A stretch of 56,327 nucleotides of DNA, from positions 1-56,327 of the forward strand of contig JAIMAY010000018.1 of the NCBI GenBank assembly GCA_023511725.1. Direction: 5' to 3'. This DNA comes from Alicyclobacillus sp. (lineage in GTDB: Bacteria > Bacillota > Bacilli > Alicyclobacillales > Alicyclobacillaceae). Of this stretch, positions 13,962 through 27,968 are shown piece after piece (the stretch's first letter is position 1; each line of letters starts with the position of its first letter). Under the pieces are notes generated by a model. The model had not been told where the DNA came from and did not search any database. It was given only the letters and a program-made list of their open reading frames with translations. Both the position numbers and the translations under genes were made by a program.

Positions 13962-15494
13962 TCAATCGCCCCGGTGCGTCTCCCGGGTGAGTTCCCCCGC
14001 CAGCAGCGCTTGCGCCACCTGCTCCACGTCGCGGCTGTACGATCTTTCCCGCGCATGCGGCGCCACCCGCCGCCGGATCCACGACAGCACGCGCGCACCG
14101 GCAGGCGACAGAAGGTCTGCACCGCGCACCTCCAGCGCAGCCGCAGCACAGATGAGCTCGATGGCCACCACGCGCGCCGCATTCTCCACCATCTGCCACG
14201 CCTGTCTTGCCGCGGTGGTGCCCATGCTCACGTGGTCCTCCTGATTGCCGCTGGAGGGGATGGAATCGACGCTGGCCGGATGCGCCAGCACCTTGTTCTC
14301 CGACACCAGCGACGCCGCGGTGTACTGCAGGATCATCAGGCCCGAGGCCAGCCCTGGCCGATCCGCCAAAAACGGCGGCAGTCCCTCGTTCAGGTGCGGG
14401 TTGACCAGCCGTTCCGTCCTGCGCTCGGAGATGTTCGCCAACTCCGCCACCGCCAGCTTCATGCTGTCCATCGCCAGCGCCACGGGCTCACCGTGGAAGT
14501 TGCCGCCGGAGAGCACCCGGTCCTCGTCCGGGAAGAGCAGCGGGTTGTCCGTGACCGCGTTCACTTCGATGGCCAACGTCTCCTCCGTCTGGCGCAGGAT
14601 GCGCCGGCACGCCCCGTGGACCTGCGGCACGCAGCGCAGGGCGTACGCGTCCTGCACCTTGCCGCGCTGTGCCGCCGCGGGGCCCGTCTGCGTCAAGCGG
14701 CTGCCATGCAGGAGCCGCCGGATGCGCTGCGCCGCCTCCGCCTGCTCCGGGTAGCCTCGGACCTGGTGCAGTGGATGTTCGAACGCGTCCTCGATACCGC
14801 CGAGCGCCTGAAGGGTGAGGGCGGCGGCGTGATCGGCCGCATCCGCCAGGTATTGCGCCTGGCGAAGCGCCGTGAGCCCCACCGCCGTCATCGCCTGCGT
14901 CCCGTTGATCAGCGCCAGCCCCTCCTTCGGCGCCAAGGTCAGCGGCTGGATGCCCGCCGCGGCCAGGGCATCCCCGCCCGACATGCGCTGGCCGCGGTAC
15001 CACGCCTCTCCCTCGCCCACGAGCACGAGCGCCAGGTGCGCCAGCGGAGCCAAATCTCCACTGGCCCCCAAGGACCCCTGCTGCGGCACCACCGGGTGCA
15101 CCCCCGCATTGAGGCACGCTGCCAAGGTGTCGATCACGGCCGGCCGCACGCCGGAATACCCCTTCGCCAGGGAAACGAGACGCAGCATCATCATGGCGCG
15201 GACGATGCTCTCGGGGAAGGGTTGGCCCACTGCGCACGCGTGGCTGCGCAGCAGGTTGAGCTGCAGCTGCGCCAGCTCCCCCGGCGGCAGCACGACCGTG
15301 CTGAGCTTCCCGAACCCGGTGTTGACGCCATAGACCACATCGCCCCGCCGCAGGATCTGCGCCAGATAACGCGCGCATCGCTCGACCTTCGCTCGCGCCG
15401 CGAGTCCCAGCCGAACCGGCTCGCGCGCTTCCACCACGCGCCATACGTCGTCCATGGCCACAGGCTGGTCGTCAATCCATACGCCGTTGCCCAT
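13962..15494 (-). CDS. hutH: Histidine ammonia-lyase
   Basis: A 510-residue MIO enzyme that converts L-histidine to urocanate and ammonia, the first step of histidine degradation. The cofactor-forming Ala-Ser-Gly lies in GSLGASGDLAPL at about residues 144-146. Other family blocks are YGVNTGFGKL, LINGTQAM, NFHGEPVALAMD and SGNQEDHVSMG. ATG at 15494 is preferred because AGAGGGTGA precedes it with 8-nt spacing; a GTG three codons upstream is possible. It is the last gene of the hut cluster. Unusually, an intrinsic terminator lies 36 nt before the start codon, separating it from hutG. Confidence 0.97.
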   Translation of the reverse strand: MGNGVWIDDQPVAMDDVWRVVEAREPVRLGLAARAKVERCARYLAQILRRGDVVYGVNTGFGKLSTVVLPPGELAQLQLNLLRSHACAVGQPFPESIVRAMMMLRLVSLAKGYSGVRPAVIDTLAACLNAGVHPVVPQQGSLGASGDLAPLAHLALVLVGEGEAWYRGQRMSGGDALAAAGIQPLTLAPKEGLALINGTQAMTAVGLTALRQAQYLADAADHAAALTLQALGGIEDAFEHPLHQVRGYPEQAEAAQRIRRLLHGSRLTQTGPAAAQRGKVQDAYALRCVPQVHGACRRILRQTEETLAIEVNAVTDNPLLFPDEDRVLSGGNFHGEPVALAMDSMKLAVAELANISERRTERLVNPHLNEGLPPFLADRPGLASGLMILQYTAASLVSENKVLAHPASVDSIPSSGNQEDHVSMGTTAARQAWQMVENAARVVAIELICAAAALEVRGADLLSPAGARVLSWIRRRVAPHARERSYSRDVEQVAQALLAGELTRETHRGD

Positions 15495-15530
15495 CAAGCT
15501 CACCCTCTCTGCGTCCTTTCACCTTGGTAG

Positions 15531-15623: not shown

Positions 15624-16616
15624 TCATGACCCGCCGCCTCCTGCGTTGCCCGCTCCGGCCTGGTCCCGCCTGCGCAGCGCAAGCCCGGTGAGGAACGATA
15701 GGATGAGGAAGGCCGCTGTGCGGCTGGTCAGGTCGCGGACGTCCTGCGCCGGGTCCGCGCACACCACGTCCAATGCCAGTATGCGCCCCTGGCAACTGAT
15801 CCACTCCAGCGCCTCCATGCACTCTGGGAGCGTGAGGCCGCCCGGTGCGGGGGCGGGGACGCCGGGGGCGAAGGCGGGATCGAGCGCGTCCAGGTCGAAC
15901 GAGACGTAGATGGCGTCCACGCGGTTCAACAAATTAGCGTGCGCCGCCTGCACCAACGGGAGGAGCCCCTCCCGCCGCACGCGCCGCGCGCTGATCACCG
16001 TGACGCCGTGCCGCAGCGCGAACGCGTGGTGAGCGGGTGCGTTGACGAAATCGCGCAGCCCCAGTTGCACGATGTCCTCGCCGCGTACCCATCCTGCCTC
16101 GACAATGGTGCGAAACGGCGTGCCGTTGTGCCGCCCGCCATCCGCCGTGTTGCGGAGATCGTGATGCGCGTCAAAGTGAAGGATGCCCATCCGCCCCCGC
16201 CCCGCCCGCACGAATCCGGCAACGGCGCAGGCGGTGAGGGAGTGATCCCCGCCCATCACGATGAGCGGCGCCGCATGCTGCGCGGCGTAGCCGGCGACGG
16301 CTTCCTCGATGCGGCGGTGGCACAGTGCCAGGTCGGTGAGGTGCATCTCCACGTCGCCGATGTCCAGCACATTCAGGTGCTCGCGCAGGTCGAGGGCATG
16401 CTCAACGCTGTACGGCGTCATCGCCGTGAACGCCGCGCGCACGGCCGCCGGCAACCGGAATGCCGCCGAGTGGCTGATGCTCGTTTTGCTGAGCGGTACA
16501 CCCAGCAGCGCCGCATCCAGCGATGCCTCCGGGGTGTACGGACGGATCCAGTCCGCCACCTTCACGTCCTCGTGGTCACGAAACTGCCACCCCGGCCGCA
16601 CGGTGTGCGGGATCAT
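15624..16616 (-). CDS. hutG: Formimidoylglutamase (ureohydrolase family)
   Basis: A 330-residue arginase/agmatinase-fold enzyme that hydrolyses N-formimino-L-glutamate to glutamate and formamide, the last step of the direct histidine route. The Mn2+ cluster motifs are intact: GGDHS, HFDAHHD and SFDLDALDP. The assignment to HutG rather than agmatinase or arginase rests on its overlap with hutI and the surrounding hut genes. The start at 16616 overlaps the hutI stop in ATGA, with GGAGGAGG eight nt upstream. Confidence 0.93.
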   Translation of the reverse strand: MIPHTVRPGWQFRDHEDVKVADWIRPYTPEASLDAALLGVPLSKTSISHSAAFRLPAAVRAAFTAMTPYSVEHALDLREHLNVLDIGDVEMHLTDLALCHRRIEEAVAGYAAQHAAPLIVMGGDHSLTACAVAGFVRAGRGRMGILHFDAHHDLRNTADGGRHNGTPFRTIVEAGWVRGEDIVQLGLRDFVNAPAHHAFALRHGVTVISARRVRREGLLPLVQAAHANLLNRVDAIYVSFDLDALDPAFAPGVPAPAPGGLTLPECMEALEWISCQGRILALDVVCADPAQDVRDLTSRTAAFLILSFLTGLALRRRDQAGAGNAGGGGS

Positions 16617-17883
16617 GCGCTCGCCTCCTCCAACACCTGGCCGTTCGCGACGACCAAGACGCCCCTTTTGTACACCTGATCCACATGATTGACGCCGAAG
16701 TGATACGGGATATAGGCCAGGCTGTCCGTCTGCCAGAGGATGACGTCCGCCTGCTTGCCCGCCTCCAGCGTGCCGATGCGGTGCCCCCGCCCCACAGCAT
16801 ACGCCGCGTTGCGGGTCACCGCCGTCAGGATTTCCTCCGGCGTCATCCGGTACAGATTCGCCGCAAACGCCATGATGAGCTGCAGCGACTCGGTCGGGCA
16901 GCTGCCCGGATTGTAATCGGTGGCCAGCGCCACCGCGCCGCCTAGATCATCGAGGATGAAACGGGCGCGGGCGGGTGCCGCGCCCAGGTTCCACGAGGTG
17001 CCCGGCAACAGCACCAGAATGACCCCCGCTTCGACGCAGGCGCGCAGGCCGTTGTCCGACGCGGCGATCACGTGATCGGCCGTCACCGCCCCCAATTCCG
17101 CGGCCAGCTCGGCCCCGCCCAGCGGCTCCACTTCATCCGCGTGGATCTTGAGCTGGAACCCCAACTCCCTGCAGCGCGCCAGGTAGCGCCGGCTCTGCTC
17201 GACCGAGAACACGCCCGCCTCGCAGAAGATGTCGGCAAACTCGGCCAGCCCCTCGCGCCGCACCTGTGCCGCCACGGCCAGCATCTGATCCAGGAAGGCC
17301 CCCGCGTCACCGCCCGCCTCCGGCGGCAAGGCGTGCGGACCGAGGAACGTGGACACCAGCTCCACGGGCTGGCTGCTGCAGAGCTGCTGCGCCACCCGGA
17401 GCTGCTTGAGCTCCGTGGCTTCATCCAGGCCGTAGCCGCTTTTCGCCTCCACGGTGGTGACACCCTGCGCCAACATCCGGCGCAGCGAAGTCCGCGCCTG
17501 CGCCATCAGGGCTGGCTCGTCGGCCGCGCGGGTGGCGCGCACGGTGGAGAGGATACCGCCGCCTTGGCGCAGGATCTCCAGATACGGCACGCCGTCCAGC
17601 TTGAGCGCCAGCTCGTTTTCGCGAGAGCCGGCGTGGACCAGGTGCGTGTGCGGATCGACCAAGCCCGGCGTCACCAACCGGCCCCCCGCGTCCACCACCG
17701 CGTCTGCCTCCAGGCCGTGCCGCGCCACGTCCGCCATCGGCCCGACGAAGCGGATCACCCCATCCTTCCAGCCGACGGCCCCCGGCGTCACCCAGCCGAC
17801 ATCGCGCATCGCCCGCCCCCGCCGCGGTCCGCTGCCGCCGGCCAGCGTCGCCACACGCGCGTTGGTGATCAGCACGTCGAGCT

Positions 17884-17887
<4 letters not shown>
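16613..17887 (-). CDS. hutI: Imidazolonepropionase
   Basis: A 424-residue amidohydrolase that opens 4-imidazolone-5-propionate to N-formimino-L-glutamate. Metal-binding motifs are [14 protein letters not shown] near residue 75, KIHADEVEP, and the late [11 protein letters not shown] stretch typical of Hut[16 protein letters not shown] is a family hallmark. The start at 17887 overlaps the hutU stop (ATGA) and has GGAGGGG six nt upstream. A longer frame upstream is just the end of hutU read in another frame. It overlaps hutG downstream, so hutU-hutI-hutG are translationally coupled. Confidence 0.96.
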
Positions 17888-19539
<1,652 letters not shown>

Positions 19540-19682: not shown

Positions 19683-20666
19683 TCACGGAACAAGGGACCT
19701 CCTGAACTCGCTGGGAGACATCCCGTAAGCGGATCGAAAAGCTTTGCTGAAATAGTTCGGATCACTGAAACCAGCCCGATAGCCCGCCTCTGCAATGGAT
19801 ATCGCCCGGTCTGCGAGCAGCTGCTTCGCCACTTCCAGTCGTGCACGTTTGATGTAAGCCGTCAGCGTGGTGTCCATCTCCTTGCGAAATAGATGACTCA
19901 AATGGTAGGGGCTCACCGCACAATGCCGAGCGATGCTGGAGAGGGACAACTCTTCGGCAAGATGGGCGTGAATGAATTCGATGGCCGTCTGCACGATGGG
20001 AGACCGGGACGCGGGACCTAGGCTACCTTGGTCCACGCTCTGCAGACGCACGTCCACCCCCGGACGCTCCGGCCGTTGCACTTGGACGACTTGGCCAGCC
20101 GCGTCCACGAGCAGCGCCAAGCCATCGTCCATATCCTCTGCGTGCAACAGCGGTTGTCCGAAAAAGGCTGCTTGCAGTGCGGCTTCACGTGCCTGCGCCA
20201 GCGATGACGACAGGCCTGTGCAACCATCCCCTGCGGCAGCCAGCCCCATGGCGATCCTGGCCCCAAGTTGCAGGCGGGCATGCGCGATGGCGTCGAAGCG
20301 CTGCGCGAGTTGTTGCGGAGCACCTTCCGAGCCTGTGAGCACCAGACACTGCAGCGCTTCGTTCCACAGGGACAGCCGGCGCGGACAACACAGGTCCAAG
20401 AGGCGGTTGACCTCCTGCCGCCACACGGATCGAACCCCGTCACCCATCCATGCGTTGGCGGACGGACTTGGAATCACGCGCACCACGAGCGCCGTGTCCG
20501 GGTTTCGGGTCCAACCCAACGCCCGCAAGCAGCGCGACAACAGCACCGGATCGACCCACTCGCCGATGCCAAGGGAGTGAAGTAACCATGTTTCCACGAA
20601 TGTACCGGCATCCAACAGGTGATGTATGGCCGCATGGACCGAGCTTTCGTTGCGAACGTCAACCAT
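19683..20666 (-). CDS. AraC-family transcriptional regulator with a GGDEF-like N-terminal region
   Basis: A 327-residue protein. The C-terminal ~100 residues hold two helix-turn-helix motifs (LSSIARHCAVSPYHLSHLFR and AISIAEAGYRAGFSDPNYFS) ending in YGMSPSEFRR. The central region, with RIAMGLAAAGDGCTGLSSSL, resembles the degenerate GGDEF-like module of YesN/CdaR-type regulators. No receiver or cupin domain is evident. The ATG at 20666 is preceded by GGAGTGAT (8 nt) and overlaps the end of the divergent urocanase gene by 8 nt, so the two are coupled. It probably controls the surrounding hut and permease promoters; the ligand could be urocanate or a related imidazole (inference). Confidence 0.85.
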   Translation of the reverse strand: MVDVRNESSVHAAIHHLLDAGTFVETWLLHSLGIGEWVDPVLLSRCLRALGWTRNPDTALVVRVIPSPSANAWMGDGVRSVWRQEVNRLLDLCCPRRLSLWNEALQCLVLTGSEGAPQQLAQRFDAIAHARLQLGARIAMGLAAAGDGCTGLSSSLAQAREAALQAAFFGQPLLHAEDMDDGLALLVDAAGQVVQVQRPERPGVDVRLQSVDQGSLGPASRSPIVQTAIEFIHAHLAEELSLSSIARHCAVSPYHLSHLFRKEMDTTLTAYIKRARLEVAKQLLADRAISIAEAGYRAGFSDPNYFSKAFRSAYGMSPSEFRRSLVP

Positions 20667-22350
20667 GGGAATCACTCCGCCGCAGCCACACATCGGGTGA
20701 TGAAGCTAAGGACCGCGCTCGTTCCTTTGCACCTGGCTCACCCGCATCGGCGTAGCGCAGGATGCCCAGTTCCAACTCAGCATGGAGCGCCTGCTGCGCT
20801 AAGACCTGTCGGGTCGCGTCTCCGTCCAGCACCACGACGGTACCGGTATGCATCGAATAGCCGATGCCCACGCCCCCGCCCTGCTGAATGGACACGAGGG
20901 TCGCGCCCATGCTGGCAAGCAACAAACCGTTCAAAACTGGCCAATCCGCGATGGCATCGGATCCGTCCGGCAGAGCTTCCGTCTCCCGGTGGGGGGAGGC
21001 CATGGTCGCACCCGCAAAGTGATCTCGAGTCACCGCGACGGGCGCGGTCAAAGTACCTCGGCGCACCCATTCGCTGAGCACCTCCACCAGACTCGTCCGC
21101 TGTTCGGCCGTTAACCAAGCCGAGCGCGCAGGGAGGCCTTGGAAGTGAACTCTCTCTCGGGCCCATCGCAGCCAGGTCATCAGTCGATCATCATGGGGGA
21201 ACTCGTTGGCGAGCCAGTCGTCGACGGTAAAAATGTCTTCAGGATCTGCAGACAGCGCTATCCAGCGCAGAGGCGTGGCACCTTGCGCAAGACGTTCACG
21301 CGCAAATAAGGTGATGAACGACGGAATGTGCTCCGCCTCCGCCACGCCTGCCTGGACCGCTTGCGCTCGCAGGTGATTTCCGTATTCGAAGACCACCGCA
21401 CCCATGGACTGGAAGTCCAGCATGGCCCGCACATGCCGAACCAGCGTGGCCTCTGCACGCCTGGTGTATTCCACCGGATCTGCAACACGCAACTGGCGAG
21501 CTTCGTCGACCGTCATGCCCGCAGGCAGGTAACCGTTGAGCAGATCATGGGCGGAGGTCTGATCCGTCACGATATCCGGACACAAACCCTTGGCAGCCAG
21601 TTGTGGATACACCTCTCCTGCGTTGCCGATCAGCGCCACGGTTCGAGACAAACGCAGCTTCACGGCCTCGCGAACCATGCGGCACGCTTCGTCCACATCA
21701 TCCGTGGCCACTTGCACGTGGCGCGTTTGCAGCCGTTTCATGACCTTCTCGGCATCTGGCTCCACCACGAGCGCCACACCACCGTTCATTTCAACGGCAA
21801 GCGGCTGAGCGCATCCCATGCCTCCCAGCCCGCTGGTCAGCACCAGCCGCCCTTGCAAACTTCCCTCAAACCACCTGGAGGCGGCGTCCCACAGTGTCTC
21901 AAACGTGTTTTGTAAGATTCCCTGTGCGCCGATGTAAGACCACGATGCTGCGGTGGACTGTCCGTACATGGTGAGTCCCTTCTGTTCCAATGCGCGAAAC
22001 GTGCCCCAATCGGACCATTGAGGGACCATCATCGCCGTCGACATGAGCACGCGCGGAGCGAGTGGATGCGTGCGAAACACGGCAACCGGCTTCCCCGATT
22101 GAACCAGGACGGTCTCATCGTCTCGCAGGTCACGCAGAATCTTCAGCAACATGTCCAATGCAATACGGTCGCGAACAGCTCGCCCGCCGCCGTACACAAT
22201 GAACTCATCGGGATCCTCCGCCACTTCCGGGGAAAGCACGTTGCACAGGAGGCGGTAGATCCCCTCCTGCTGCCATCCTCGGCATGTCCGCTCGCCGGAG
22301 ATCGTCGCAAGATATTCCACCTGTCCCACCTCTGCCAGGTACGGTGTCAC
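20659..22350 (-). CDS. Divergent urocanase paralogue, probably acting on another imidazole acrylate
   Basis: A urocanase-family protein of about 563 residues. Family features kept: the CRGWQQEG start region, VYGGG, the NAD+-binding [32 protein letters not shown] and FQGLPARSAWL. Features changed relative to the canonical HutU next door: the active-site segment [10 protein letters not shown] is replaced (the conserved Cys aligns with Ala355 in ERLAQGATPLRW), RDHLDCGS becomes RDHFAGAT, NRETE becomes HRETE, and HHGGGVG becomes QQGGGVG. The enzyme fold and cofactor site seem intact while the substrate site is remodelled. Urocanase relatives acting on thiourocanate or S-methylthiourocanate are known; that or another methylated imidazole is plausible. 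The start is uncertain: GTG at 22350 follows GGGTGG by about 6 nt. Confidence 0.85.
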   Translation of the reverse strand: MTPYLAEVGQVEYLATISGERTCRGWQQEGIYRLLCNVLSPEVAEDPDEFIVYGGGRAVRDRIALDMLLKILRDLRDDETVLVQSGKPVAVFRTHPLAPRVLMSTAMMVPQWSDWGTFRALEQKGLTMYGQSTAASWSYIGAQGILQNTFETLWDAASRWFEGSLQGRLVLTSGLGGMGCAQPLAVEMNGGVALVVEPDAEKVMKRLQTRHVQVATDDVDEACRMVREAVKLRLSRTVALIGNAGEVYPQLAAKGLCPDIVTDQTSAHDLLNGYLPAGMTVDEARQLRVADPVEYTRRAEATLVRHVRAMLDFQSMGAVVFEYGNHLRAQAVQAGVAEAEHIPSFITLFARERLAQGATPLRWIALSADPEDIFTVDDWLANEFPHDDRLMTWLRWARERVHFQGLPARSAWLTAEQRTSLVEVLSEWVRRGTLTAPVAVTRDHFAGATMASPHRETEALPDGSDAIADWPVLNGLLLASMGATLVSIQQGGGVGIGYSMHTGTVVVLDGDATRQVLAQQALHAELELGILRYADAGEPGAKERARSLASSPDVWLRRSDSHG

Positions 22351-22386
22351 GCCTGTCCACCCGCGTCGGAAACACAAGAATATACG

Positions 22387-22401
22387 ATGAAAACGCAATC
22401 G
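22387..22401. promoter_or_regulatory. cre-like CcpA site in the divergent hut/permease intergenic region
   Basis: A 15-nt match to the relaxed cre pattern WTGNAANCGNWNNCW with only the final W mismatched (core TGAAAACG). It lies between the divergent urocanase gene and the permease gene, upstream of both starts. Catabolite repression of a hut operon by CcpA is known in Bacillus; here it is inferred from sequence only. Confidence 0.4.
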
Positions 22402-22430
22402 CGACCAGGGACGCGCGGGGTGCATGACCC

Positions 22431-22459
22431 TATAATGCCTTTCAACCACACTTGTTGAA
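22431..22459 (+). promoter_or_regulatory. Permease promoter -10 with adjacent dyad (possible operator)
   Basis: A perfect TATAAT (22431-22436) lacks a -35 hexamer at 17 nt (GGGACG), as in activator-dependent promoters. Immediately downstream lies the dyad TTCAAC-N7-GTTGAA (22441-22459), spanning the expected transcript start. The permease start codon is about 45 nt further on. The AraC-family protein is the obvious candidate regulator. Confidence 0.45.
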
Positions 22460-22502
22460 GTCTTCCGTGGTCTCGAACACTTTGGTGAACAGGAGGGTGA
22501 AC

Positions 22503-23867
22503 ATGCAGGTTGAGCAACGCACCATCGATTATATTCCAGAGAACGAACGGCACGGGAGTGTGAGAAACCTGTTTGCCATCTGGTTCTCGGCGAACGCCCA
22601 GATCACAACCATCGTCACGGGAGCCTTGGCCATCGTTCTCGGCCTCAATCTGTGGTGGTCCATGATCGCCATCATTCTCGGGAACGCCATTGGTGGGATC
22701 TTCATGGCGTACCACTCGGCGCAGGGACCCAAGCTGGGTATTCCTCAAATGATCCAAAGTCGAGCTCAGTTTGGTGTGATGGGTGCCACGCTGCCCCTCA
22801 TTCTGGTCATCATCATGTATCTGGGGTTTTTCTCCACGAGTGGCGTCCTGGGTGCGCAGGCACTGACGTCGGCGTTCCACCTACCGCAAAATCTTAGCCT
22901 GATCATCGTCAATGCCATCACCTGCCTGCTTGTGATCATCGGCTATGACCTCATCCATCGGTACGAGCGTGTCGTGGCCGTGCTCTTCCTGTTGCTGTTT
23001 GTGTACATCACCATACGTCTCTCATCCCAACCCCTTGCGACCCAGCCGTCACAGCCGCATTTTGCCTGGGGCCCCTTCCTGCTGGTGTTGTCCATCATGG
23101 CATCCTGGCAGCTGACATATGCGCCGTACGTCGCCGATTATTCGCGTTATCTGCCCAAGCACACGTCCATCCGCTCGACCTTCTGGTACACCTATCTGGG
23201 CTCTGTCATTGGTAGTAGTTGGATGATGATCCTCGGCGCGTGGATTGCTGTTGTCGCACCCAAGCAATCCGACGACATGGTGGCGTACATCGGCCTTCTG
23301 GCCGGTCACGGATTGGGACTCATCACATACCTGCTGATGATGTGCGGTGTGCTGGCCATCAACACGCTCAATGTCTACGGCGGATTTATGTCCGTTGTGA
23401 CCACCATCACGGCGTTCCACCCCTGGAAGCCGTCCGCACGCACCCGCATTCTGGGCACCATCATCTTCGCGCTGGCGGGCACCGCGATATCCATCTGGGG
23501 CCAAGGCAATTTCTTGGAGAACTACTCCAAATTCCTCACGCTGTTGCTGTACTTCTTGACACCGTGGACAGCCATTAACCTCGTCGACTTTTACCTGCTG
23601 CGCCATGGGGATTATCAGATTGAAGCTATCTTCGATCCCAACGGACAGTATGGCCGGGTGAATTGGGTCGCCATCCTTGCTTATGTGGTCTCGATTGTGG
23701 TTCAGTTCCCATTTATGAATACCGAACTGTACGTTGGCTTTTTGGCCCACCATATGGGAGGAGCCGACATTGCGTGGATGGTTGGGCTTGTGGTGGCAGC
23801 AGCCCTGTACTATTTCCCAATGAAATCACGCCTCACGTCGTCTTCCGGCGCACACCTGACCGCTTGA
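22503..23867 (+). CDS. NCS1-family permease (cytosine/purine/hydantoin/allantoin type)
   Basis: A 454-residue protein with about 12 membrane segments and the nucleobase:cation symporter-1 family layout: IPENERHGSVRNLFAIWF at the N-terminus, ANAQITTIVTGA in the first segment, and FTPW-like LTPWTAINLVDFYLLRHG late in the protein. The start at 22503 is backed by AGGAGG with 6-nt spacing. The family carries nucleobases, hydantoins, allantoin and related heterocycles with Na+ or H+. It is divergent from the variant urocanase, so uptake of an imidazole or hydantoin-like compound that feeds this cluster is likely. A strong terminator follows. Confidence 0.88.
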   Translation: MQVEQRTIDYIPENERHGSVRNLFAIWFSANAQITTIVTGALAIVLGLNLWWSMIAIILGNAIGGIFMAYHSAQGPKLGIPQMIQSRAQFGVMGATLPLILVIIMYLGFFSTSGVLGAQALTSAFHLPQNLSLIIVNAITCLLVIIGYDLIHRYERVVAVLFLLLFVYITIRLSSQPLATQPSQPHFAWGPFLLVLSIMASWQLTYAPYVADYSRYLPKHTSIRSTFWYTYLGSVIGSSWMMILGAWIAVVAPKQSDDMVAYIGLLAGHGLGLITYLLMMCGVLAINTLNVYGGFMSVVTTITAFHPWKPSARTRILGTIIFALAGTAISIWGQGNFLENYSKFLTLLLYFLTPWTAINLVDFYLLRHGDYQIEAIFDPNGQYGRVNWVAILAYVVSIVVQFPFMNTELYVGFLAHHMGGADIAWMVGLVVAAALYYFPMKSRLTSSSGAHLTA

Positions 23868-24784: not shown

Positions 24785-27343
24785 TCACACGCCGCGCAGC
24801 ACGACGAGCAAGGTGGCGAGGACAAGCGGCAACCCGATGGCATAGGCAACATCCCATGGCCGCACCGGCGCCGGCCAGTAATACGTGCGTGCGGTCGCCT
24901 GTTCCGCGGCGCGCCCGATCAGTCCGCGCGCCTCCATCGCCACTGCCACGCGTTCGCTCATCCGGATGGCCTGCGCCAGCAGCGGCAGTGCATAGACCAC
25001 GGGTTGTGCCCACCAGGCCACCGCCTTCCCGCGCATCGCGCGGGCTTGCCGCAGCTTCGTCCACTCCTCACGGAACAAGGGCACAAACCGCAACCCCGCC
25101 AACACACCGTAGGCGAACTTCGGTGGGCAGCGGAAGTTCTGGCAGAGCGCCTCGATGAAACGGGAGATGTCCACACTGGAGACGAGCACCAAGCCCAGGG
25201 CAACGCCGCCGAGCATGCGCCCCGCCAGCACCAACCCGTTGTAAAGCCCGAGCCAGGACAGGCGGAACCAGAGCACGTGGTACACCTTGGTACCCGGCGG
25301 CACCGCGGAGAAGGCGGCAAACGACCACACGTACAAGATGTAAAAGATCAGAAACGCGGCGAGCCTGCGGATGGTGCGGATGGGGCCAATCCCGGACGCC
25401 AACGCGGCCAGCAGCACCGGCACCAGCAGCGTCGCCGCCGATTGCGCCAGGTTGCGCGCGAACATCGCCACCCCCACGGCCAGCAGCGTCGCCACCAGCT
25501 GCATCGCCGGATTGATACGCCGCAGCGGCGCGGGCCAGCGGCGTCGGACAGGGGTCGCTCTCAGCCACCCGTCGCTGCTCACTTCTTCACGAACCGCGCC
25601 ATGTCCTGCCTGCGGCTCGTGGTTCCCGTCGCCTCCAGCGAGGGTCCGGCTGTATTCCCGCCCCGACGGCGGATTCACGCCCGCCTCCGCCACGTCGGCG
25701 GCCCACGCCGTATCGTCCAAAAGATGCGCCTGCTGCATCACGTCCGGCCTCGTCCACAACGCCTCCGGCGTGCCTTCGAACAGGATGCCGCCGTCCGCCA
25801 GCACCACCACCTGCGTGGCAAACCGGCGCACCAGATCCATGTCGTGCGTGGAGATGACCACCGTCTTGCCCGCTCGATGGAGTGTTGCCAGCCGCTCCAT
25901 CAGCGCTTCCTGCGTTCGTGCATCCTGCCCGAACGTGGGCTCGTCGAACAGATACAGGTCATGTTCTTCGCGCGTGATGACGGCCACGCTCAACCGCCGC
26001 TTCTGGCCTTGGCTGAGGGCGAACGGACTCTGCTCCGCCGTGCCGGCGAGGCCGTGATCGGCCAGCGCCTGATGCACTTCAGCGGGAATCGAGTCCCCCA
26101 GCAGCCGACCTGCCCATTCGTCCGCCACCCGTTCAAACACAAATTGGTGCTCCGGGTTCTGAAAGCACAGCACTACCTTCTCCCTCAACGCGCGCGCAGG
26201 CCAGTCCCGCACGGGCCGTCCGAACAGCGCCACGCGGCCGGCGGTCAGCGGGCGCAGCCCCGCCATCACCAGGAGCAGCGTCGACTTGCCTGCGCCGTTG
26301 GGGCCGACGATGGCCGTGAAGGACCCACGCGGGATGGTGAGGTTGAGCCCCTGCCACACAGGTTGATCCCCATACGCCAGCGTCGCCTCGTCCAGCTCCA
26401 CCGCAGCGGGCATCGGGACGGGGGAACTGGCGTCCCGCAGCTTCCTGTCTCCCGCATCCACCGCCTGCGAGGCAGGCGCAGACCTGTCCTGGCCCGCCGT
26501 CCGCGCGGCGGTGCGTGCGTGCCAGTGTTTCCACGCGGGCAGCACGCCAACCTCCGCCAACCAATCGGCGTACTTCTCCACCGTTTCGCGGCACGGACCG
26601 GAGGCCACCACGCGGCCGTCCGCATCGAATAAGACCACGCGCTCCACCCACGGCAAGAGCGGCTCAAACTTGTGCTCAATGATCACCATCGTCTGTCCGG
26701 CCGCATGCAAGCGGCGCAACTGCCGGAAGACCTGAGCGGTTGCTTGGGGGTCCAGGTTGGCCGTGGGTTCGTCGGCCATCAACAGGCGCGGATGCATGGC
26801 CAGCGCACACGCGAGGGCGAGTTTCTGCTTCATCCCGCCTGAAAACGAAGCGTGCCTGGCAAGCGGCGCAACACACAGTCCAGCCTCGCGCAACGCGTGC
26901 TCAATGCGCGACACCATGTCAGCCCGAGGTCGCGCCGCGTTCTCCAGCCCGAATGCAATCTCCTCGCCGACACGAAGCATGCACAGCTGCGCTTCGGGGT
27001 CCTGGAATATGTAGCCGATGGCACCGGGACGCTGTAGATCCGGGTGCCGCCAGACCTCGCCCGTCACCGTCGCTGCCACCGCATCGGGAATCAGCCCTGC
27101 GCAGAGCATCGCGAGCGTGCTTTTGCCGCAGCCGCTCGGTCCGAGCAGCAGCACCGCCTCACCGTCGCGGACCTCGAAGTCGACGTCCTTCAACACAGGC
27201 TGATCCGCCCATTCATACGCCAGGTGCACACCGTGCAGACGAAGCAGCGGATGCCCGACGGTGGATGCGGCGTGCGTGGACCCATCGGACGCGGGCCGCC
27301 GTGACGCGGTAGCGGCCACAGGTCCCGTCCCCGACTGTGTCAC
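24785..27343 (-). CDS. ECF transporter fusion: two ABC ATPases plus EcfT (thiamine/HMP type)
   Basis: An 852-residue three-domain protein. ATPase 1 (about residues 32-270) has Walker A GPSGCGKST, signature FSGGMKQKL and Walker B LLMADEPT. ATPase 2 (about 310-540) has GPNGAGKST, LSQGQKRRL and LYLFDEPTFG. The C-terminal EcfT part (about 590-850) has several membrane segments and the Ala-Arg-Gly coupling motifs ARAMRG and AMEARG. In Bacillus the matching YkoD (two ATPases) and YkoC (T component) are separate proteins; here all three are one chain. The start is GTG overlapping the ykoE stop. With YkoE and the TPP riboswitch it should import thiamine or its pyrimidine precursor. Confidence 0.92.
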   Translation of the reverse strand: MTQSGTGPVAATASRRPASDGSTHAASTVGHPLLRLHGVHLAYEWADQPVLKDVDFEVRDGEAVLLLGPSGCGKSTLAMLCAGLIPDAVAATVTGEVWRHPDLQRPGAIGYIFQDPEAQLCMLRVGEEIAFGLENAARPRADMVSRIEHALREAGLCVAPLARHASFSGGMKQKLALACALAMHPRLLMADEPTANLDPQATAQVFRQLRRLHAAGQTMVIIEHKFEPLLPWVERVVLFDADGRVVASGPCRETVEKYADWLAEVGVLPAWKHWHARTAARTAGQDRSAPASQAVDAGDRKLRDASSPVPMPAAVELDEATLAYGDQPVWQGLNLTIPRGSFTAIVGPNGAGKSTLLLVMAGLRPLTAGRVALFGRPVRDWPARALREKVVLCFQNPEHQFVFERVADEWAGRLLGDSIPAEVHQALADHGLAGTAEQSPFALSQGQKRRLSVAVITREEHDLYLFDEPTFGQDARTQEALMERLATLHRAGKTVVISTHDMDLVRRFATQVVVLADGGILFEGTPEALWTRPDVMQQAHLLDDTAWAADVAEAGVNPPSGREYSRTLAGGDGNHEPQAGHGAVREEVSSDGWLRATPVRRRWPAPLRRINPAMQLVATLLAVGVAMFARNLAQSAATLLVPVLLAALASGIGPIRTIRRLAAFLIFYILYVWSFAAFSAVPPGTKVYHVLWFRLSWLGLYNGLVLAGRMLGGVALGLVLVSSVDISRFIEALCQNFRCPPKFAYGVLAGLRFVPLFREEWTKLRQARAMRGKAVAWWAQPVVYALPLLAQAIRMSERVAVAMEARGLIGRAAEQATARTYYWPAPVRPWDVAYAIGLPLVLATLLVVLRGV

Positions 27344-27909
27344 GACCGCTCCCTCGCTTGCCGGCCAATCTCAAAGTTCCGCACCACACCAGCCCGGCGC
27401 AGCGCGTCGCCAATCAGCTTCGGGATGAGCCCCGCAATCACCGCACCGCTCATGCAGGTGGTGACCAGATAACCCACGACGATGCCTGCGCTGTACTTGT
27501 CTCCGCCATATTGGAAATACCACTGCAGCGTGTTGCCGATCCCGCCCACAGCACCGGACAGCATCATCCACGGCAGGCTCCACCGCCGCCAGCCGCCGAG
27601 CAGCAGCCCCACCTCCGCGCCGCCGCCCTGCACCAGGCCGGAGATGATGGCCCCCGTGCCGTACGGGCTCCCGAGCAGAAACTCCACCACCGCGCTGACG
27701 AGTCCGCCAAGAAACGCGGCGAACGGACGCCGGACGATGTAGGCCACCAGACCAGCGGCAATCCACCACACGCCGTTGACCAGGCCCTGCACAGCGGGAC
27801 TGACGGTGCTGCTAAACAGCGGCATCGTCAAATTGTCCCACCCGAGGTAGATCACGCCGCAGACCACCGACAGAATCGCCGCCACAATGATCTCTCGCAA
27901 CTTCCACAT
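27340..27909 (-). CDS. ykoE: ECF substrate-specificity subunit, YkoE family (thiamine/HMP)
   Basis: A 189-residue membrane protein with about five or six segments. It matches the YkoE family pattern: KLREIIVAAILSVVCGVIY, VEFLLGSPYG, a glycine-rich SGLVQGGGAEVGLLL, and the ending GVVRNFEIGRQ. The ATG at 27909 follows AGGAGGGAG; the frame upstream overlaps the riboswitch leader and is not coding. The stop codon overlaps the GTG of the ECF fusion. The substrate is inferred from the TPP riboswitch upstream. Confidence 0.9.
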   Translation of the reverse strand: MWKLREIIVAAILSVVCGVIYLGWDNLTMPLFSSTVSPAVQGLVNGVWWIAAGLVAYIVRRPFAAFLGGLVSAVVEFLLGSPYGTGAIISGLVQGGGAEVGLLLGGWRRWSLPWMMLSGAVGGIGNTLQWYFQYGGDKYSAGIVVGYLVTTCMSGAVIAGLIPKLIGDALRRAGVVRNFEIGRQARERS

Positions 27910-27968
27910 GACGCCTCGCTCCCTCCTGGCCGTCACGGACGCCCCGGCCGGCTGGCCCGAAGGCAATT

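Follow-up and report, generated by a model that had tools for sequence, protein, structure and literature searches.

Why a histidine-utilization (hut) cluster should carry two urocanase genes is the question raised by contig JAIMAY010000018.1 of Alicyclobacillus sp. (assembly GCA_023511725.1), whose 56,327 nucleotides are here called the window. As the sequence-only reading had observed, the gene at the head of this minus-strand cluster, here named URO* (20659-22350), is an open frame of 563 amino acids, and a second urocanase, the canonical HutU (17884-19539, minus strand, recognized by its profile scores), lies in the same cluster and is 48% identical to it; these two are also the only urocanases found in the host genome, which is 97.7% complete. 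What that reading overlooked is the adjoining gene for an AraC/YesN-type regulator, REG (19683-20693, minus strand), whose start overlaps the stop of URO*. We propose that URO* arose from a urocanase and senses urocanate (or imidazolepropionate), acting through its partner REG, a reading to which we assign a probability of about 0.6. The clade, the gene pairing, the co-divergence, the residue pattern and the domain make-up were computed, while binding, protein contact, the direction of control and the target promoters are what we infer from them.

Membership in the urocanase family was found for URO* with the HutU model TIGR01228 (655.3 bits, cut-off 375) as well as with PF01175 (252.9 bits, cut-off 23.2). 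A placement within ordinary urocanases had been named in advance as counting against a special role, and the phylogeny does not give it: URO* groups with 31 other urocanase-like proteins in a separate clade, whose members all belong to Bacillota as judged by record titles and relatedness. Its support is 100/99 in a slower maximum-likelihood tree (the 32 plus 38 others) and 0.999 in the tree calculated from 169 distinct urocanases, to which 230 frames had been collapsed. The clade includes proteins of Alicyclobacillaceae, Neobacillus, Cytobacillus, Siminovitchia, Oceanobacillus, Savagea, Aneurinibacillus, Brevibacillus, Peptococcaceae, Desulfofundulus, Desulfosporosinus, Symbiobacterium and others. 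It is no census, being made of ten proteins from a survey of the class and 22 from one scan with two peptide patterns derived from the subgroup of the window, and it holds some near-identical pairs (L091/L092, L121/L123 and L093/L094). In the class survey, URO*-like proteins occurred in at least 10 of 398 genomes, to which the scan of named genomes added more; in the order of the window, 5 of 59 genomes (its own included) gave a match of 905-937 bits, and the remainder gave 821 bits or less. The subgroup of the window consists of URO* and four orthologues, three in survey genomes (G190, G289 and G125) and one in a metagenome-assembled genome (L142). In the three survey genomes the URO*-REG pair stands near hutU, hutI, hutG and a homologous transporter gene, with URO* proteins 57-65% identical to that of the window. 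Since all four orthologues are intact, at 55-65% identity and in a setting that is the same or close to it, decay is unlikely, and the earlier suggestion of remodelling holds, many of the changes being common to the whole conserved clade. A pseudogene was discarded for the same intact orthologues, and a recent duplication of the local hutU was discarded because the separate clade is common to several orders.

The property that sets the clade apart most clearly is its neighbour. In all 31 members with downstream DNA, an AraC/YesN-type regulator is the next gene on the same strand, at -64 to +90 nucleotides (the contig of the 32nd, L114, stops at its stop codon), while directly downstream of the 137 urocanases collected outside the clade, 129 with at least 1000 nucleotides of downstream DNA and 88 with at least 1700, no regulator of this type occurs (0 of 137). 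The idea of a pairing was formed on ten loci and the remaining 22 were a fresh test, in which every member with room, 21 of 21, was positive. The search profile was built from nine clade regulators, which match by construction; given merely 1000 nucleotides of downstream DNA it still recovered the regulator in 21 of 21 fresh members, and over up to 2000 nucleotides it found no match in the outside set, 129 of 137 having at least 1000. Extending the search to 3 kb behind the 88 outside proteins with at least 2000 nucleotides gave seven matches, six of which are partner urocanases seeing the URO* regulator further along the locus, the seventh (L107) being weak at 24.5 bits. The two proteins also diverge together: distances among URO* proteins and among their regulators correlate with r = 0.949 (31 pairs; 0 of 5000 permutations), and on the same 19 loci with a HutU shorter than 640 amino acids the correlation was 0.966 for URO*-REG versus 0.828 for URO*-HutU.

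The make-up of REG was read from domain searches and from its predicted structure. Its AraC helix-turn-helix (HTH) domain is clear (HTH_18, 86 bits, cut-off 33.6) and its GGDEF-like domain is weak (20.0 bits, under the cut-off of Pfam); domain search detected no receiver in it, nor was a classical AraC sugar-binding domain found, and REG thus has no obvious input of its own. The structure model (mean predicted local distance difference test, pLDDT, of 81; predicted template modelling score 0.53) resembles AraC DNA-binding domains (2k9s of E. coli) and, more weakly, GGDEF folds. All 31 clade regulators have GGDEF_2 and AraC HTH domains at E of 0.001 or below, and several of them show the layout of YesN in the YesM/YesN two-component systems, that is, receiver, GGDEF-like domain and AraC HTH. 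A difference from those systems is that a receiver is detectable in only 9 of the 31; a simple motif scan for histidine kinases across the 32 clade loci returned a single protein, L118, in which sCache, SPOB_a and HATPase domains were found. As a member of a separate bacterial family encoded next to a regulator, URO* is probably a sensor that signals the presence of urocanate, a product of histidine, and less likely an enzyme with a novel substrate.

The residues of URO* point in the same direction. Its altered segments are as had been described (LAQGATPLRW; RDHFAGAT for RDHLDCGS; QQGGGVG for HHGGGVG), and the signature SGLGGMGCAQPLAV is present. Compared with the 135 outside urocanases longer than 500 amino acids, on which all residue counts are based, the clade has mostly lost His489 (133/135 outside, 3/32 in the clade; Gln in URO*, codon 20884-20886), Trp62 (131/135 and 2/32; Arg in URO*), Phe354 (135/135 and 6/32; Leu in URO*) and Asp446 (135/135 and 8/32, with Glu in 14; Ala in URO*, codon 21013-21015). 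The cysteine singled out by the sequence-only reading, Cys348 of the neighbouring HutU and position 355 in the numbering of P. putida, is indeed Ala in URO* (codon 21286-21288). It is not the defining loss, though, and was dropped as the key feature because it varies inside the subgroup of five (C in two, S, A and T in one each; C in 114/135 outside). The C of RDHLDCGS was likewise rejected as the catalytic cysteine, since it varies even in canonical enzymes (C, S, A, T, G) and the numbering puts the active-site cysteine in the ARICW motif. That cysteine, which we take to be the listed active-site residue Cys410/411 of P. putida, is missing from all five proteins of the subgroup (A in three, V in two; Ala411 in URO*, codon 21118-21120) and present in 115/135 outside urocanases. 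The subgroup is also the most altered part of the clade, with 59-64 of 213 canonical positions changed versus 40-53 in the other members.

The ligand sites were spared by comparison. At the positions which we take from HAMAP/UniProt as those of the site for nicotinamide adenine dinucleotide (NAD+), URO* has Y53, Q131, G177-M178-G179, E197, N243, Q264-T265, H268, Y274, Y323 and G493, the exceptions being a Lys at residue 202 (found in 23/135 others too) and a one-residue deletion in the YGG loop; Y53, H268 and Y274, together with R362 and R455, are kept in 32/32 clade members. At the pocket positions 131/323/455/456, 31 of the 32 clade members read QYRE and one QLRE; outside the clade QYRE occurs in 96/135, and 34 proteins have G at 131 (25 GNIG, 5 GNIM and 4 others). 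Judged by these residues, URO* keeps a pocket of the urocanate type, and with most of the NAD+ site also kept, binding of both NAD+ and urocanate has probably been preserved. The structure predicted for URO* is informative for the fold only, being weak (mean pLDDT 70.9, from an alignment of 10 rows) and low in the cofactor loops. What is seen in URO*, then, is a gene coupled to that of a transcription regulator and a protein whose sequence retains ligand-site residues and lacks several that are conserved in the enzymes. Catalysis, moreover, is covered without it, as another urocanase is present in 21 of the 22 genomes reached through clade loci. In four of these (G420, G425, G426 and G432) that additional urocanase is long and strongly divergent (open frames of 678-724 amino acids, 353-368 bits), and URO* therefore accompanies different kinds of HutU and does not follow the type of HutU.

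Therefore, we hypothesize a simple order of events, in which URO* would hold NAD+ and urocanate (perhaps imidazolepropionate in some relatives), the ligand-bound protein would act on REG, the product of the next, overlapping gene, and in the presence of urocanate the two proteins together would turn on expression of the hut genes and of the divergently encoded transporter. Several observations weigh against this proposal. Among the 91 columns that at least 96% of the 135 outside urocanases conserve, 73 carry the canonical residue in 90% or more of the clade members; Cys411 is kept in all 27 clade members beyond the subgroup of the window; and R455, the Arg that is Ala in 1w1u ('Inactive Urocanase-SA'), is retained throughout, so that many clade members may still be active. 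One group (L090, L091, L092 and L126) keeps Asp446 in 4/4 and His489 in 3/4, and the metagenome-assembled genome G438 shows URO* as its sole urocanase. As to co-divergence, vertical descent alone would also yield it, and the bootstrap interval for the excess of URO*-REG over URO*-HutU comes near zero (0.02-0.31). Finally, with the gene probes of the window, HutI was found within 5 kb at 14/32 clade loci and HutH at 7/32, so that not every locus shows a connection with the utilization of histidine.

The main rival explanation, which we regard as unlikely, makes URO* a working hydratase whose substrate is a different compound resembling urocanate (methylated urocanate, thiourocanate, urocanyl-CoA or similar) and whose gene shares a transcript with that of its pathway's regulator. 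The family fold and the cofactor-site residues are kept, and 14 of the 32 clade members lie near genes for a coenzyme A (CoA)-transferase III and an acyl-CoA dehydrogenase, so that further chemistry is close at hand. Thiourocanate hydratases (NF058530; structure 7ned) and S-methylthiourocanate hydratases (NF058531; structures 8q9u/8q9v) are likewise specialised urocanase paralogues; the five thiourocanate hydratases over the cut-off lack the active-site cysteine, as the subgroup of the window does, and since 7ned, by its title, holds NAD+ and urocanate, an altered pocket can still serve a hydratase. However, the two identities suggested by the earlier reading did not survive comparison. URO* scores 570.4 bits with NF058530 and 574.6 with NF058531, far under the cut-offs of 930 and 880, which seven further clade members scanned also miss; the S-methylthiourocanate hydratase identity was rejected by score, and the thiourocanate hydratase identity by score, tree position and pocket residues, as all five proteins over its cut-off read GNIM, not QYRE, and are placed elsewhere in the tree. 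The pocket type is an argument and not a proof, given that, according to its entry title, the crystals of the one thiourocanate hydratase of known structure contained urocanate. These five proteins keep His489 and Asp446, both lost in URO*, and lose only two conserved columns completely, a lenient control because the 135-protein reference set includes 29 thiourocanate-like proteins. No regulator of the REG type adjoins the variant hydratases in the available flanking DNA, whereas it is the constant neighbour in the clade. Ergothionase, which we take to belong to the PF00221 lyase family, had been proposed as the object of a genome search; that search gave a single PF00221 protein in the host genome, HutH with its ASG motif, and thus supports no extra lyase, none beyond one being found in the three orthologue-bearing genomes checked either. 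Apart from URO*, 29 proteins of Actinomycetota, Chloroflexota and Deinococcota (L138-L141, L145, L147-L151, L153-L161, L163-L171 and L174) combine G131 with I455, having N or D at position 323 in 27 cases and Y in 2; the five of them scanned score higher with the thiourocanate hydratase model than with that of HutU, yet under the thiourocanate cut-off, and the 29 perhaps form a wider thiourocanate-type family.

That URO* is simply another isozyme, with the usual urocanase activity and an incidental regulator beside it, would agree with its 655 bits against a cut-off of 375 and with the retention of most conserved columns, but we consider it improbable in view of a regulator pairing of 31/31 versus 0/137 and of the systematic loss of nearly invariant residues. 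Very improbable, in our judgement, is a dead subunit that pairs with HutU and tunes its activity, in the manner of the trypanosome prozyme and AdoMetDC. Urocanase is a dimer, and another urocanase occurs in 21 of the 22 genomes reached through clade loci, which would suit such a partner; against it stand the tighter co-divergence with REG than with HutU, the very divergent long form of the other urocanase in 4 of 22 genomes, and the fact that REG, not HutU, is the constant neighbour. Precedents of regulatory dead paralogues are on record, as far as the titles and opening lines of the sources tell (PMC5201418; PMC6221367), and speak for the same idea.

The proposed sensor resembles known systems in part. 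With canonical HutU (PF01175, TIGR01228; structures 1uwk, 2fkn and 1x87) URO* shares the family, the fold and most residues of the NAD+ site and urocanate pocket, and differs from it in the losses of the clade (His489, Asp446 and Trp62, and Cys411 in the subgroup), in its separate clade and in the adjoining AraC-type regulator. Enzyme paralogues that act as ligand-bound co-regulators are a known kind: Gal3 of yeast derives from Gal1, and DhaQ of Lactococcus derives from DhaK and works with DhaS. As in these cases, URO* is the paralogue of a metabolic enzyme with its ligand site apparently kept, encoded with the regulator of the pathway; unlike them, it is based on urocanase and NAD+ and has an AraC/YesN-type partner, on which it would act by an interaction that we infer. 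HutC works as one protein that responds directly to urocanate, and is tied to hut control as we propose for URO*-REG, the protein types being unrelated. By the titles and abstract beginnings of the reports concerned, HutC is of GntR type and controls the genes of histidine and urocanate use in Pseudomonas (PMC12977541; PMC12772324). A literature search over titles and abstract beginnings found no paper on a urocanase-based, NAD+-bound sensor or on its substrate among the matches listed. The HutU model of NCBI accepts 8/8 clade members scanned, so that a genome carrying such a protein seems to encode the same enzyme at least twice. Should URO* prove to be a sensor, this HutU annotation would be wrong, the control of the histidine pathway would be explained in many Bacillota, and the short list of enzymes turned transcription co-regulators would gain a bacterial, NAD+-bound addition.

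A second genomic context may extend the role of the pair. The CoA-transferase III and acyl-CoA dehydrogenase genes were found within 5 kb at the 14 clade loci mentioned above and near 11/137 outside urocanases, of which nine are partners in clade loci and two lie on the contig of the clade member L129. L112, L113, L122 and L162 show the order transporter, CoA-transferase, dehydrogenase, URO*, REG, and hut genes were not detected there with the gene probes of the window. The same gene pair was seen with URO*-REG at L094:4420-6740, L095:10752-13047 and L131 as well as at these four loci, often with a transporter. Imidazolepropionate is an inhibitor of urocanase that adds to the bound NAD+, a behaviour that would suit a urocanase-derived sensor. 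A candidate route, from imidazolepropionate through a CoA ester to urocanate, could be catalyzed by the CoA-transferase III and the acyl-CoA dehydrogenase; no such CoA-dependent oxidation was found in the titles and abstract beginnings covered by the literature search. We tentatively suggest, as something possible rather than expected, a novel class of sensor in which the urocanase fold would trap urocanate or imidazolepropionate on NAD+ without completing hydration and would license a kinase-independent YesN-type activator, the pair governing histidine use and, in relatives, the CoA-dependent oxidation of imidazolepropionate (dihydrourocanate) to urocanate. The two enzyme genes linked to URO*-REG at these loci may also indicate how bacteria consume imidazolepropionate, a microbial metabolite reported to be raised in diabetes (PMC7676231).

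A palindrome in which GTGCACTATTTT and AAAATAGTGCAC flank a spacer, degenerate to a varying degree, recurs upstream of the CoA-transferase genes, with operator-like sites at L131:4434-4495, L113:3881-3942, L094:4282-4343, L093:7695-7756 (minus strand) and L122:2971-3032. A matrix built from eight loci recovered sites that had been held out, in Aneurinibacillus (L093 and L117, from one genome) and in Cytobacillus depressus (L122, before the transporter gene); among 205 loci, no site scoring above 14 lay outside the clade loci except in L117, whose clade member is that of L093.

In the window, URO* starts with a GTG at 22350, an alternative GTG upstream at 22449 giving 596 amino acids, and the start of REG overlaps its stop with either of the first two ATG codons of REG. 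The minus-strand order is URO*, REG, HutU, HutI, HutG and HutH. HutI, the imidazolonepropionase, was placed at 16613-17845 with a start of our choice, the longest frame extending to 18154. The HutG-like formimidoylglutamase (15624-16616) scores 216.6 bits, just under the NCBIfam cut-off of 229. The histidine ammonia-lyase HutH (13962-15503) was identified by profile search. The transporter, of the NCS1 type (cytosine/purine family, by profile match), is encoded divergently from URO* on the plus strand (22503-23867), its start being set by comparison with L034 while the longest frame begins at 22452, and it is probably the importer of the substrate of the pathway. The intergenic region between the two (22351-22502) is the predicted location of the promoters controlled by REG; visual comparison of this region among the members of the subgroup revealed no common operator. 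In the I2511 relative (genome G190), the HutU at L033:9143-10972 is unusual, with FSQGKGPFRW and RDHHDTGSV and only 58% identity to the HutU of the window. Farther along the window, at 24785-27966 on the minus strand, lies the gene of an 852-amino-acid protein that contains two stretches of ECF-type ATPase and, towards its C terminus, a portion resembling a membrane T component, and a separate gene matching PF09819 comes after it.

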